Part shown: positions 1,401 through 7,141 of the stretch, piece by piece
Layout of the letters: every line of letters begins with the position of its first letter
Numbering within the stretch: position 1 is the first letter of the stretch
Assembly (NCBI GenBank): GCA_945897805.1
Contig: CAMDFX010000006.1
Coordinates: forward strand, 105,220-169,219
Direction of reading: 5' to 3'
DNA length: 64,000 nt
Source: Chryseobacterium gleum
Lineage (GTDB): Bacteria > Bacteroidota > Bacteroidia > Flavobacteriales_D > Crocinitomicaceae
Notes under the pieces: generated by a model
What the model was told of the DNA's origin: nothing
The model's input: the letters and a program-made list of their open reading frames with translations, nothing else
Databases searched by the model: none
Program-made: the position numbers and the translations under genes

Positions 1401-2384
1401 CTATTCAAGAATTAATTTCTTGCTACTTCTCCCCGATTCTGAATTGATATTCAGCATATAAACACCTTTTTCTAAGTTTTGTAAATTTACTTTTATAAAG
1501 CTTTCAACTGAAAAAGAATCTATAATTTTCCCTGAAAGATCCAAAATCTGAATATCGCAATATTCCGATGTAGCGATTGAGATTTCAGTTTTTGCAGGAT
1601 TCGGATAAATACTAAAAATTTGAACGTTTTCATTTATTCCCAAAATCCCCTGGTGTATCACTCCCACTCCATCTAAATCAAAACCGCCTGATTCAAAAGC
1701 TGTTGGGAAAGGATCATTGACCATATTTCCAAAACTATCAAAAGTGGCAAAGAGCGAATCAATCGAACCAACAACATCTACAATTCTCACATGTGTGATG
1801 TAATCTAAATTTAAAAGAGAATCTTGCGGCAAATCTGATAAATCAAAAGGCGTACCAAATCCTTGTTCATATTTTCCTGCAAAATTATTCAAATAGCGAC
1901 AATCAATGAATTCAAAACCACCAATTTGATTAGCAAAAGGAACTTCAGTGTGAGCTGGAAAACGCAGGAAATGAATACCGTCTGAACTTACTTCCACAAA
2001 TGCCAATTCTAAAAAGTTGGCTAAAAAACTATTTTCAAAAACGGCGAAATCAGCACCAATTCCATTTTTTATCGGTGCATCAAAAGTCAATGTTGCGATT
2101 CCACCATCACCTAAACTCACAATATCAGCACTATTTCCTTCTGCTTGATACAATGCAGCTTCAGGAAGTCCATAAGTTGCTTTATTTACATCATTTAGCG
2201 CAAAATTGGTATCAGAAATATTCAAAAATCCCCGAGTCAATTCTATTCCAGTAGCCCAACTGACAAAGATATTGCTGTCTTTTGAAATAGCATTCGTTCC
2301 GCTTTCATTCGCCGCAGGAGCGTAAGATTGGCTATGAATTGAGAAAGAAATCAATCCAACGAAAAAAGTAATTATTCTACTCAT
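1401..2384 (-). CDS. T9SS type A sorting domain-containing cell-surface protein, last gene of the cobalamin riboswitch operon
   Basis: Signal peptide; C-terminal IYPNPAKTEISI...GVYMLNINSESGRSSKKLILE sorting domain; overlaps the upstream gene by 8 nt. Confidence 0.75.
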   Translation of the reverse strand: MSRIITFFVGLISFSIHSQSYAPAANESGTNAISKDSNIFVSWATGIELTRGFLNISDTNFALNDVNKATYGLPEAALYQAEGNSADIVSLGDGGIATLTFDAPIKNGIGADFAVFENSFLANFLELAFVEVSSDGIHFLRFPAHTEVPFANQIGGFEFIDCRYLNNFAGKYEQGFGTPFDLSDLPQDSLLNLDYITHVRIVDVVGSIDSLFATFDSFGNMVNDPFPTAFESGGFDLDGVGVIHQGILGINENVQIFSIYPNPAKTEISIATSEYCDIQILDLSGKIIDSFSVESFIKVNLQNLEKGVYMLNINSESGRSSKKLILE

Positions 2385-3417
2385 AAATCAAGATTGAATT
2401 TGGATTTAAACCAACATGAAATTGGCTTAAAAAATCTCCATTAACGTTGTACTTCAAAATATTTCCGGTATTGGTATAACCCTTTGAATCAAACAAATAT
2501 ATCTGTTGACTTGAACTTCTGAAATACGTATTTGAAAGCGTCGTAATTGAAGAATTATTGATAAAATTATCGTTTATCAATACATCAGTTTCTGCGTTGA
2601 AAAGCATCAATTTATTATTGTTTAAAATCAATAATCTGTTGTTCATCAATGCAATTTTGGAAGCATCGAAATCGTAACTTTCCAAAACTGTAAAATTATT
2701 TTGGTCGATTTTTTTCATGCGAGATGGAATCGTTGAGTAATTTCCTCTGGAAATAACATAAACGTCTCCTTGTCCATCCGTCACAATTGAACCTGGATTT
2801 TTTCCAACCACAATTTTTGTCAATTCTGTTTTTGAATTCAAATCAACCACGGAAACGGTAGAATCCAACACTAGCGCGTTCAAACCTCCTGAATTGGAGA
2901 CAAATAAATATTGACCAGAAATCGTCATTTGATCAGGATTAAGTCCTACGGGAATTCTTGATTCGATTTGAAAAGTGGCAGTATCCATCACATCTACAAA
3001 ACCGTCAAAACAGGAAATAAATGCTTTTGAGCCAAAAAAACGAATGCTTCGAGGCTGTTTGGCGTTTCCATTTGTCTGCATTGATATTTGTTGGATTGAG
3101 TTACCAGAGATCGCATCTAAAACTTCAATCGTACTAGAAACGTTCACAACAACGTAAATTTTATTTCCGTATCTAACCATTTCATTTCCTGTATCACCCA
3201 ACAATCTTCCTGATTTTTGAGTGAAAAATTGGTCATTTGAAGTTCCTGTTCCAAAATCTACCCAAGTCAAACTAGAATTATTTAGCTGAAACAATCCTTC
3301 ATTGAGCACCAACATGCCATTTTTAAGTATTGCTGGAGATTCAATTGTTTCTTCTTTTTTACAAGAATAAAATACCACCAACAAACTGATTAATAGTATA
3401 TATTTAATGAATTTCAT
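2377..3417 (-). CDS. YncE/BtuG-like beta-propeller surface lipoprotein
   Basis: Lipobox-like LVVFYSCKKEE; repeated propeller blades (VDVMDTATFQIESRIPVGLNPDQMTISGQYLFVSNSGG, VSVVDLNSKTELTKIVVGKNPGSIVTD). Confidence 0.78.
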   Translation of the reverse strand: MKFIKYILLISLLVVFYSCKKEETIESPAILKNGMLVLNEGLFQLNNSSLTWVDFGTGTSNDQFFTQKSGRLLGDTGNEMVRYGNKIYVVVNVSSTIEVLDAISGNSIQQISMQTNGNAKQPRSIRFFGSKAFISCFDGFVDVMDTATFQIESRIPVGLNPDQMTISGQYLFVSNSGGLNALVLDSTVSVVDLNSKTELTKIVVGKNPGSIVTDGQGDVYVISRGNYSTIPSRMKKIDQNNFTVLESYDFDASKIALMNNRLLILNNNKLMLFNAETDVLINDNFINNSSITTLSNTYFRSSSQQIYLFDSKGYTNTGNILKYNVNGDFLSQFHVGLNPNSILIYE

Positions 3418-5434
3418 AATTCAAGGAAATTAATAAATTAGTGCCCGGCATCACATAATAGCGGACAAATGCATAGGTTTGATTCAGTATATTTTTTACA
3501 TTCAAACTCAATCTCAAACTTTGTGTATTTGGCAAGGTAAAAGTGTGATAAATCGAAGCATCGAAAACATAAAATCCATCTATTCTATTGGCTTGGATAT
3601 TTTCATTCAACGCATAACGATTAGAAGTTGCCAAGCCAGAAATTGTAATTCCACTTTTGGATTTATGAGTGACTGTGAAATCAGCATTCAAAGTGTGTTG
3701 AGGTAAATAAGGCAACTGATTTTTATAGGTTGGCGAATTTTTATCTGATAAATCTTCCACCTTTTGGAACGAATAATTGACATTGGTTTCTAGTTTCAAT
3801 TCTGAAAAATTTCGTGTATGATTGAACTGAAAATCAGCACCAAAAACCTGCGCTTTGCCAATATTTTGAATTGACCAAATGAATAAATTTTTGGTTGGAA
3901 TGGCGACAATTTTATTTTCTACCAAGTTATAATAGGCATCTAATCTAAATTTGATCAGATTTCGGTGAATACTGTAATTATGAAAATTGCCAATATTGAA
4001 TTGATTTGCAATTTCTGGCTTCAGATTCAAATTCCCCAACGTATTATAATACAATTCATTGAACGTTGGAATTCGAAAAGATCGCTTCGCCCAAAAATTC
4101 AATCCACCAATGAAATACCTCCATTTTTCAGTTTGAAATGAGGCAAAAGGCGTAAAAACCAATCGCTTGATATTATTTCCTGTAATTGACTGCTTGTCAA
4201 CAAAAAACTGTTCTCCAACTTGAAGAACTAAATTAGATCTATTCCAATTTTTTTCGGTACCAAAAACTGCCTTTAATTGATATCTTTCAGGAGCTAAAAT
4301 TGCAGGTAAATTGCTGTTTAGCAAACTATAGCTCTGTTCAACTCCTCCAAAATAAATCAATTTTAATTTCTTCGATGAAGTAATTTCTATTATTTGGTAG
4401 ACAGAATCAAGTTCTCTTCTTTTTATGGACAATTTTCTGAATGAAAATCCATTTACAAAATGAGTATTGTAATATCTATTATCCAAGTAACCTGCAGTAT
4501 TTAAATAAGTTGAATCAATATAAATCAATTGTTCATTGCGCATTGAAGCATAAATTCTGAAAGGAAAAACTTGATCAAATCGGGTAAAATCTGCATTGAA
4601 TTGATTTGTCACATTTTTTAATCGTTGATTTGCAATATCATTATACAAAATCACAGCACCAGGAAGTCCTTTGTCAGATTGATTGAATTGATTGTTGATT
4701 CTAAAAACACTTTTACCCACTCTAAATCCTGATGAAAAACCGCCAAAACCTTCTTTAAAATCATTGTTGAGTCGCTTTCCTTGGTACAATTGATTCCCAT
4801 TTTCAATTTCGAAGTCATATCTGCCCGCAGCTTCGCGGTATTTGCCCATTAAAGAGAAAAAACTGCGATTATTGTTTACTTTCATTGCTAAATATGAATC
4901 AATTTGACCGAAAGAACCAACTTTTAACGCTGATCTAACTTGGTATTTGGGCATCGCAAAACTACTTTCAAAAGTTTCAATGCTAAGGCAACTTCCGCCG
5001 ATTAATGCAGAGATAGGATTTAAAAATCCCTGTGTGCCACCAATTGAAAGTGTAATTTTTTCTATGCTTTCAGTTTGAATATTACTCAAATCAAGTTGAC
5101 CAGTTTGGGTATTTTGCAATGAAAAACCATCCACTACAATTCCTGTTTGATTTCCATTTATTCCTCTAACTGAGATGGTTTTCATTCCGCCCAAACCACC
5201 GTAACTTTTCAATGAAACACCAACAAAGCGCTGCAACAATTGGCCTACATCTTCTGGTTGCAACGCTCTAATTTGCGATTTATTCAACTTTTGAACCTGA
5301 GAGTTTTCTATTTCAACGCGAAAATCAATCACCTCAATAGTGTCCAATTGATGACCCAATCTTTGGGCAAAAGTAGCCAAAGAAAAAAGTATCAAATAAA
5401 TGAAAATGAGGAATTTGAACATGATTAAAACCAA
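3404..5434 (-). CDS. TonB-dependent outer-membrane receptor, BtuB-like
   Basis: Plug motif VGQLLQRFVGVSLKSYGGLGGMKTISVRGINGNQTGIVVDG; C-terminal barrel with fRIPTFNELYYNTLGNLNLKPE; downstream of a cobalamin riboswitch. Confidence 0.88.
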   Translation of the reverse strand: MVLIMFKFLIFIYLILFSLATFAQRLGHQLDTIEVIDFRVEIENSQVQKLNKSQIRALQPEDVGQLLQRFVGVSLKSYGGLGGMKTISVRGINGNQTGIVVDGFSLQNTQTGQLDLSNIQTESIEKITLSIGGTQGFLNPISALIGGSCLSIETFESSFAMPKYQVRSALKVGSFGQIDSYLAMKVNNNRSFFSLMGKYREAAGRYDFEIENGNQLYQGKRLNNDFKEGFGGFSSGFRVGKSVFRINNQFNQSDKGLPGAVILYNDIANQRLKNVTNQFNADFTRFDQVFPFRIYASMRNEQLIYIDSTYLNTAGYLDNRYYNTHFVNGFSFRKLSIKRRELDSVYQIIEITSSKKLKLIYFGGVEQSYSLLNSNLPAILAPERYQLKAVFGTEKNWNRSNLVLQVGEQFFVDKQSITGNNIKRLVFTPFASFQTEKWRYFIGGLNFWAKRSFRIPTFNELYYNTLGNLNLKPEIANQFNIGNFHNYSIHRNLIKFRLDAYYNLVENKIVAIPTKNLFIWSIQNIGKAQVFGADFQFNHTRNFSELKLETNVNYSFQKVEDLSDKNSPTYKNQLPYLPQHTLNADFTVTHKSKSGITISGLATSNRYALNENIQANRIDGFYVFDASIYHTFTLPNTQSLRLSLNVKNILNQTYAFVRYYVMPGTNLLISLNYEIH

Positions 5435-5437
5435 ATG

Positions 5438-6397
5438 TTATTTTATCAATTTCTGGCAAGAAATAATTCCCTCTTTAGTCATCTGAACAAAATAGGTTCC
5501 TGATTCTAGATTGGAAACATCTATTTTAGAAAATTCTTGGTGTTCAAAAGATTGAAAAACTTTTCCTGTTAGGTCAACAATTTGAACTTTTCCGTTTCCG
5601 CCTTGAATTGATAGCCAATCATTGATCGGACTTGGATAAATTTTGAATTCTTGTTTTGCATGCTCTGAAATATTTTCCAGTGGAATAAAATCCAAATCAT
5701 CTAGCGCAAAATAAGCTGGAGTATTCATCCCAAAATCACCAACATCTGATGATTGCAATTCAAAACTCAAACCATAAACATTCTCTAAAGATGTCAAATC
5801 AACAGATTTCCAAGTGTTTAAAATGAAATCTTGCGCATTGTCTGCAAATCGAAAATCAGCCAAATAAACATCAACAGAACCTGTAATTTCATCTACTGAA
5901 TTCAAACCATTGATGGTCAATTTGAAAAAATCTTCGCCGTTAGTGCTATCAGCAATACCTTGCGCATTATTTAGAGATCCAAACTTTTTAGCATAAGCAT
6001 CACCGTCTCGCATCGAAATTCCTGCAAAGGTTGTGTTGGTAATTTTTGCAGTTTGTGGCATTCCAAGCTGCGGAAATGTAATTTTACCTGTGGGGTAGCA
6101 AATCGCATATTTTTCACTTGAATCAGCGCCTGAACCGGCAAAGGCACTGTATTGGTTTGAATAACCAGGAGTTGTTATGTCTGTCATATTGGAATAAACA
6201 AAGCCATTCCAATAGCCGCCAGCATCAGTATAATCGTTGGAAAAATAAATTCCCATGGCATTAAAACCGCCAGCGCCATCTGAACCGTTGTAATACGATT
6301 CTGCCTGTGGCAAAGTTAAACTCTCAAAATTAACGAATTGTGCGCTTGTGAACATCGCAATTGATGCGAAACAAGCAGTAAATACAATCTTCTTCAT
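5438..6397 (-). CDS. DUF4465-like T9SS-sorted secreted protein, first gene of the cobalamin riboswitch operon
   Basis: FESLTLPQAESYYNGSDGAGGF...YFSNDYTDAGGYWNGFVYSNMTD; C-terminal IYPSPINDWLSIQ...LESGTYFVQMTKEGIISCQKLIK. Confidence 0.72.
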   Translation of the reverse strand: MKKIVFTACFASIAMFTSAQFVNFESLTLPQAESYYNGSDGAGGFNAMGIYFSNDYTDAGGYWNGFVYSNMTDITTPGYSNQYSAFAGSGADSSEKYAICYPTGKITFPQLGMPQTAKITNTTFAGISMRDGDAYAKKFGSLNNAQGIADSTNGEDFFKLTINGLNSVDEITGSVDVYLADFRFADNAQDFILNTWKSVDLTSLENVYGLSFELQSSDVGDFGMNTPAYFALDDLDFIPLENISEHAKQEFKIYPSPINDWLSIQGGNGKVQIVDLTGKVFQSFEHQEFSKIDVSNLESGTYFVQMTKEGIISCQKLIK

Positions 6398-6514
6398 ACA
6401 TTATTTATTAAATAAAAAATAATACTAAGAAGAAATCAGGGACAGAAAATGCCCTTAAAAACAGATGAACCGTAAAGTAAATCCGACTTTATTCTGAAGT
6501 CTTCATTCAAAGAT

Positions 6515-6675
6515 TATTGGCAGATATTCTGACTTGCTCCAACTCTATTTCGCCTTCCCATCCTTGGCCTTCGGACAGTGACATATTGAAATAGATTTTA
6601 CAGAACTTACAGCTGCAGATACAGTTCTCGATTTACACGAGATTCCCTTTTAATCCAAAAAGATGGTACCAAAAA
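6515..6675 (-). ncRNA. Cobalamin (adenosylcobalamin-class) riboswitch
   Basis: Reverse complement reads GGTACC...AAAGGGAATCTCGTGTAAATCGAGAACTGTATCTGCAGCTGTAAG...TGTCACTG...GGGAAGGCG...GCAAGTCAGAATATCTGCCAA; the conserved GGGAA, GTGnAAnTC, CTGTAA, GTCACTG, GGGAAGG and B12-box AGTCAG..ATCTGCC elements appear in order. Confidence 0.93.
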
Positions 6676-6740
6676 TCTGAAACAAAGGTATAGAATAAAA
6701 TATAATAAAATAGATTTATTGCTATTTTTAGGAAAATACT

Positions 6741-6769: not shown

Positions 6770-7141
6770 ATGAAAAAAAGTTTATTTATTTTGTTAGCAG
6801 TTGTTGCTACATTTATTGCTTCTTGTTCTAAGGACGCAAAGATTAACCGTAGAATTGACGGAGAATGGAAAGTTGTATCTATCGGTGGTGCTTCGATTCC
6901 AGCAGATGAAAGTTACACTTGGAAGTTCAGTAAAGATGAAAAATTGACAGGAGATGGGACATATACTGAAGTTGATTCTTTTGGAACTTATTCTACTCCA
7001 TTTACTTATTCTGTTGGAAGCGAAAAAATTACACTAGTAATTGATGGTTTTTCTACCGTTCTTTCGGTTAATAAGTACGAAAAGAAGAAAGTTGAATTAA
7101 TTGACTCTGATGGAGATGTTTGGGTATTAGATCCTAAATAA
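6770..7141 (+). CDS. Lipocalin-like small lipoprotein, hypothetical
   Basis: Lipobox TFIASCSKD; IDGEWKVVSIGG lipocalin-like start; terminator follows. Confidence 0.6.
   Translation: MKKSLFILLAVVATFIASCSKDAKINRRIDGEWKVVSIGGASIPADESYTWKFSKDEKLTGDGTYTEVDSFGTYSTPFTYSVGSEKITLVIDGFSTVLSVNKYEKKKVELIDSDGDVWVLDPK

Follow-up and report, generated by a model that had tools for sequence, protein, structure and literature searches.

The 64,000-nucleotide (nt) stretch of Chryseobacterium gleum DNA analysed here (the window) contains a cobalamin riboswitch that precedes four packed genes, all on the minus strand, in the order DUF4465 protein, BtuB, BtuG lipoprotein and the protein of positions 1401-2384 (hereafter 1401). 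The first and the last of these proteins end in sorting tails of the type IX secretion system (T9SS), and the locus is very probably a B12-repressed operon for cobamide capture at the outer surface, including two T9SS-tailed candidate binders. Judged from sequence profiles, the DUF4465 protein is a BtuJ, which belongs to a published B12-binding family, and 1401 is a remote homologue of BtuH. An earlier note on this DNA had read the locus as one of corrinoid acquisition, which our data support, but its view of an under-described system applies to one half only: the DUF4465 half has already been published as BtuJ, whereas the family of 1401 is unnamed. The new part is thus the 1401 family and its relation to BtuH, in what is overall a variant of the Bacteroides Btu surface system.

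A PDB search with a profile of the 1401 family and its remote tier retrieved 8blw_B, the BtuG-BtuH fusion, at its H domain (E 4.8e-6). BtuH sequences were gathered from the Bacteroidaceae using a stretch of the 8blw_B chain, and hhalign aligned the 1401 family to these with a probability of 97.6% (E 3.8e-12), as compared to 0.1% for DUF4465 and BtuG and at most 0.3% for the controls. When the same 61 Bacteroidaceae genomes were searched with the 1401-family profile, all 19 matches fell on BtuH domains, and in the reverse search the BtuH profile, run against all open reading frames (ORFs) of the B12 loci, picked 1401-family members only. The two families share the core SLG-GG...NG-G-DF...N-x-F, and the strongest conserved motif of the 1401 family, the invariant FEN-x-F with N118 and F120, lies opposite the BtuH motif GNAF in the alignment. 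Mapped by spacing, N118 and F120 may correspond to the B12-phosphate Asn399 and to Phe401 of BtuH2 (PMC8941943). Furthermore, the gene order btuB-btuG-1401 parallels the domain order in the BtuG-BtuH fusion BT_1490, one protein in that case and two overlapping genes here. In a Bacteroidaceae protein (L135:1381-3186), an N-terminal BtuH domain is fused to a C-terminal DUF4465 (BtuJ-type) domain, which provides an independent tie between the BtuH and DUF4465 families.

The predicted structure points in the same direction. A first AlphaFold2 model, built from eight close sequences, was poor, with a predicted local distance difference test score (pLDDT) of 58.6, and was replaced by a model from 29 sequences (pLDDT 84.8, predicted template modelling score 0.88). 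In a Foldseek search of the PDB with the latter, BtuH2 (7biz) ranked second to third with an E-value of 1.5e-3, and 8blw_B ranked sixth. We consider this match to BtuH2 as supportive, not decisive.

No Pfam or NCBIfam model matches the 227-residue domain of 1401; its T9SS tail scores 51.6 bits with TIGR04183. A placement of the protein as a divergent DUF4465 was tried and rejected (hhalign probability 0.1%). The seven true homologues that were identified first, six in Bacteroidota and one in a planctomycete, are 49-88% identical to 1401. Members of the family were matched in 140 of 395 genomes sampled from the class, about 119 of them strongly, as against just 9 strong matches in a phylum-wide spread of 396 genomes, so that the frequency of the family depends on the sampling. 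Six loci from the genome scan (L009-L014) were excluded, as they match the T9SS tail alone. The T9SS-tail hidden Markov model matches 49 of the 55 distinct 1401-family loci, and the planctomycete homologue (L008, Planctomycetales) ends in a PEP-CTERM-like tail.

The family is strongly associated with cobalamin riboswitches. All seven loci of the first homologues have such a riboswitch upstream on the same strand, and cobalamin riboswitches are present in 48 of 50 tested genomes with a 1401-family gene. The earlier note had proposed that the T9SS proteins should co-occur with these riboswitches in other genomes, and indeed, in 36 of the 50, a same-strand riboswitch precedes the domain match of the 1401 family by 88-4737 bp. 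From the riboswitch density (58 in about 165 Mb) we calculate that a same-strand stretch of 5 kb upstream would contain one by chance in about 0.04 of 50 genomes. A permissive riboswitch search upstream of lone 1401 genes added a cobalamin riboswitch in G648, which is outside the 50 tested genomes, and an adenosylcobalamin riboswitch in G455, one of the tested genomes that had no earlier match; none above the cut-off was found in the remaining 15 stretches. At 35 of the 55 distinct loci, btuB is located no more than 6 kb away on the same strand, as is btuG at 34 and a DUF4465 gene at 22, and T9SS-tailed DUF4465 proteins repeatedly adjoin the family in Bacteroidota operons. The association is not merely hitch-hiking with btuB, since 1401 genes are placed directly behind their own riboswitch in the planctomycete locus L008 and in the genomes G405 and G569, and have one just upstream in G648.

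Several observations weigh against B12 binding by 1401, or against its relation to BtuH, and need to be considered. The hhalign alignment extends over about 100 columns in the N-terminal half only, the domain is shorter than that of BtuH (about 227 versus 270 residues), and because its C-terminal half is unaligned, the corrin contacts His476, Tyr510, Trp511 and Trp577 of BtuH2 are untraceable in 1401. With 7biz the query TM-score is 0.46, the highest listed but short of the customary 0.5, and F5/8C, CBM32 and discoidin domains are among the Foldseek matches with comparable E-values. For 13 of the 50 genomes, the search returned no B12 riboswitch close to the 1401 gene, although some of these genes are at contig ends. 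Likewise, no BtuB, BtuG or DUF4465 genes were seen beside a set of arrays (L184-L191) in family f58 (G397, G469, G523, G549, G573, G618, G638), in which ORFs of about 390-1140 residues, most of them T9SS-tailed, contain two to three tandem divergent BtuH-like folds each, with more than seven matches per genome. Finally, BtuL, a Bacteroides protein encoded in such an operon, promotes vesicle release and does not bind B12 (PMC12751083).

The fold alone does therefore not mean B12 binding, since divergent copies occur in T9SS proteins with no adjoining B12 genes. One can imagine that 1401 belongs to the operon but serves as a scaffold, adhesin or release factor that does not bind B12, for which the tandem domains in large T9SS proteins, the resemblance to general-purpose carbohydrate-binding and discoidin domains and the precedent of BtuL could all be cited. 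We find this unlikely: the 1401 subfamily is tightly linked to cobalamin riboswitches, including lone genes in both Bacteroidota and Planctomycetes, and its FEN-x-F motif aligns with GNAF of BtuH at a spacing that matches Asn399 and Phe401. The domain of 1401 probably binds B12, a suggestion that builds on the riboswitch link and the relation to BtuH rather than on the fold, which recurs away from B12 loci and, remotely, in Leptospira lipoproteins.

In family f58, an ordinary, separate copy is also part of a btu operon (L192, L193). A remote tier of the 1401 family was recovered from other Bacteroidota lineages (L053-L064, L024-L044), with a cobalamin riboswitch at six of the eight loci tested. 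The LIC_13355 lipoprotein family of Leptospira (NF033170), a host-component-binding lipoprotein (PMC11891782), gave a weak profile match to this remote tier (45.0 bits, E 7.5e-12), far under the 120-bit cut-off of that family.

The remaining components of the operon (Table 1) are easier to place. The gathering threshold of the DUF4465 model PF14717 is 25 bits, and the first protein scores 169.9 bits (E 9.1e-50); its tail matches PF18962 (E 1.2e-12) and TIGR04183 (42.9 bits), such that both T9SS sorting domains named in the earlier note were recovered. The HI-loop motif NTPAYF (MNTPAYFALDD), with the B12-binding tyrosine, and the helix motif RDGDAY are retained, and the solved relatives are 9fct, 9hmu and 9i2l (PMC13398666). 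B12 binding has been demonstrated for eight DUF4465 members, including one of Fluviicola taffensis (PMC13398666), crystal structures are available (PMC12751083, PMC13398666), a T9SS tail was reported in 229 of 824 members (PMC12751083) and the genes are often located beside TonB receptors and DUF5074 propellers (PMC13398666). This half of the operon is thus not new, as the B12 binding, T9SS tails and siting of the DUF4465 family have all been described. With its domain score, NTPAYF loop and operon context in common with the BtuJ family (IPR027828), and with no essential difference from it, the protein is an ordinary T9SS-tailed member.

Table 1. Features of the cobamide capture locus (positions in the window).
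Positions	Strand	Feature	Basis
6683-6690	-	Candidate -7 promoter box TAccTTTG, immediately 5' of the aptamer	Read in the sequence
6502-6688	-	Cobalamin riboswitch aptamer (RF00174)	Rfam, 97.3 bits, E 4.9e-23, positions 1-189 of 189
6398-6501	-	Leader / expression platform, aptamer to first start codon	Near-identical sequence in L002 and L003
5438-6397	-	BtuJ-type protein with a signal peptide, the jelly roll of DUF4465 (B12-binding family) and a type A tail for T9SS sorting	Pfam, NCBIfam
3404-5434	-	BtuB, TonB-dependent outer-membrane cobamide transporter	8blw_A, Plug PF07715
2377-3417	-	BtuG-like beta-propeller lipoprotein, lipobox ...VFYSC-KK	8blw_B, DUF5074
1401-2384	-	BtuH-related domain (residues ~20-247), signal peptide, type A T9SS tail (residues 259-326)	TIGR04183, 8blw_B, hhalign with BtuH

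The receptor and the propeller proposed in the earlier note were also confirmed. Residues 44-671 of the receptor match BtuB1 of Bacteroides thetaiotaomicron (8blw_A, E 3.1e-73), and the Plug domain scores 54.3 bits; we filed it as a Bacteroides-type BtuB and not as the TIGR01779 equivalog, since its score of 89.9 bits with that model is below the cut-off of 599.7. Residues 35-343 of the propeller match BtuG1 of B. thetaiotaomicron (8blw_B, E 4.1e-54; 8ptf and 8ptd, E about 5e-54), and DUF5074, the model of the BtuG propeller (PF16819), scores 49.6 bits (E 4e-13). The lipobox (...YSC) was read from the translation. BtuG-type propellers with a T9SS tail were observed elsewhere, besides another BtuG in the same operon (L004:6684-7967, L053, L055, L059).

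The riboswitch is the sole cobalamin riboswitch detected in a scan of the 3.19-Mb genome, and its full-length Rfam match (gathering score 31.5 bits) agrees with the complete set of conserved riboswitch boxes recognized on the minus strand in the earlier note, although the right edge set there, 6675, omits the first 13 nt of the match. The candidate promoter box conforms to what we take to be the Bacteroidota-type -7 consensus, and TACCTTTG is conserved at the equivalent position in L002 and L003. A strong terminator was sought in the leader and none was found, the fold being no better than those of shuffled sequences (z-score -0.98). The four ORFs and their overlaps of 14 nt (3404-3417) and 8 nt (2377-2384) are exactly as previously described, but the gap between the DUF4465 gene and btuB is 3 nt (5435-5437) rather than 4, given a btuB start at TTG 5434. 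The ATG at base 5422, four codons downstream (MFKFLIF...), is the more likely start.

One could also argue that the locus imports another tetrapyrrole or a metal complex and that the riboswitch senses B12 indirectly, as both TonB receptors and propellers are used for a wide range of ligands. We regard this as highly improbable, considering that the best matches of BtuB, BtuG and the DUF4465 protein are to B12-specific solved relatives and that the riboswitch is of the canonical cobalamin class.

As a cobamide capture system, the operon would be derepressed by the riboswitch and expressed when cobamide is scarce. The BtuJ-type protein and 1401 would be exported by Sec and then leave the cell via the T9SS, after which they may remain on the cell surface or be released, capturing scarce cobamide and possibly handing it over to BtuG and BtuB. 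The BtuG lipoprotein would act as the lid of BtuB in the outer membrane and pass the cobamide inward, as has been shown for Bacteroides (PMC10404256). BtuF, BtuC and BtuD would complete the import, and the B12-dependent methionine synthase would use the vitamin. The btuF, btuC and btuD genes are located together on contig C5, another contig than the operon, and have no riboswitch. The absence of such genes from the window had been stated before and was corroborated, the only FecCD-type permease of the genome being on another contig. The methionine synthase is split into two adjacent genes on the same contig as btuFCD (L195:2918-6789, G000 contig C5), with a homocysteine part of 350 residues and a remainder of 887 residues, and a PorU sortase was identified with 1212 bits. 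The genome can thus import and use B12 and run the T9SS.

It is also conceivable, if rather improbable, that the two T9SS-tailed proteins are not fixed to the surface but released as diffusible, siderophore-like carriers of B12. Cargo of the T9SS can be either released or anchored, but in the studied cases proteins with type A tails usually have the tail cleaved and become attached to surface lipopolysaccharide. A parallel to released carriers is provided by the vesicle-borne BtuJ of B. thetaiotaomicron, which works like a siderophore (PMC12751083).

The closest known system is btu operon 1 of B. thetaiotaomicron (BT_1486-1491), consisting of BtuK1, BtuK2, BtuH1, BtuB1, BtuGH and BtuJ1. In both operons, riboswitch control is combined with BtuB, with a BtuG that a BtuH-type domain follows immediately, and with a BtuJ of the DUF4465 family. 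They differ in that the Bacteroides BtuH and BtuJ are lipoproteins (PMC8941943, PMC12751083), with BtuG and BtuH fused, whereas here they are separate proteins with T9SS tails; furthermore, there is no BtuK, and btuFCD are elsewhere in the genome. BtuH itself (BT_1956, PDB 7biz; H domain of BT_1490, PDB 8blw), which like BtuG is known to bind B12, shares with 1401 the profile homology of the N-terminal half and the operon neighbours, but has a lipid anchor in place of the T9SS or PEP-CTERM tail of the 1401 family. Most Bacteroidota homologues, like this locus, carry T9SS tails. This suggests that the BtuJ and BtuH capture modules have been conserved and that the anchoring route was swapped between lineages.

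The published account of BtuH, with a survey of gut Bacteroidetes, states that no structural homologs were known (PMC8941943). Our searches of the literature for the T9SS in connection with either BtuG or B12 riboswitches returned only papers on other subjects. We lean slightly towards the hypothesis that the 1401 family represents a B12-binding branch of a BtuH superfamily that is common in Bacteroidota outside Bacteroides and also present in Planctomycetes, with a T9SS, lipid or PEP-CTERM route depending on the lineage. If so, B12 would be captured by secreted or surface proteins far beyond the system known from gut Bacteroides. The placement with BtuH also provides a testable function for a riboswitch-linked family of flavobacteria and planctomycetes, with strong matches in about 119 of the 395 class genomes. 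Next to the operon and divergent from it, on the plus strand at 6770-7141, we observed a gene for a small lipoprotein with a weak match to Lipocalin_8 (E 0.003).

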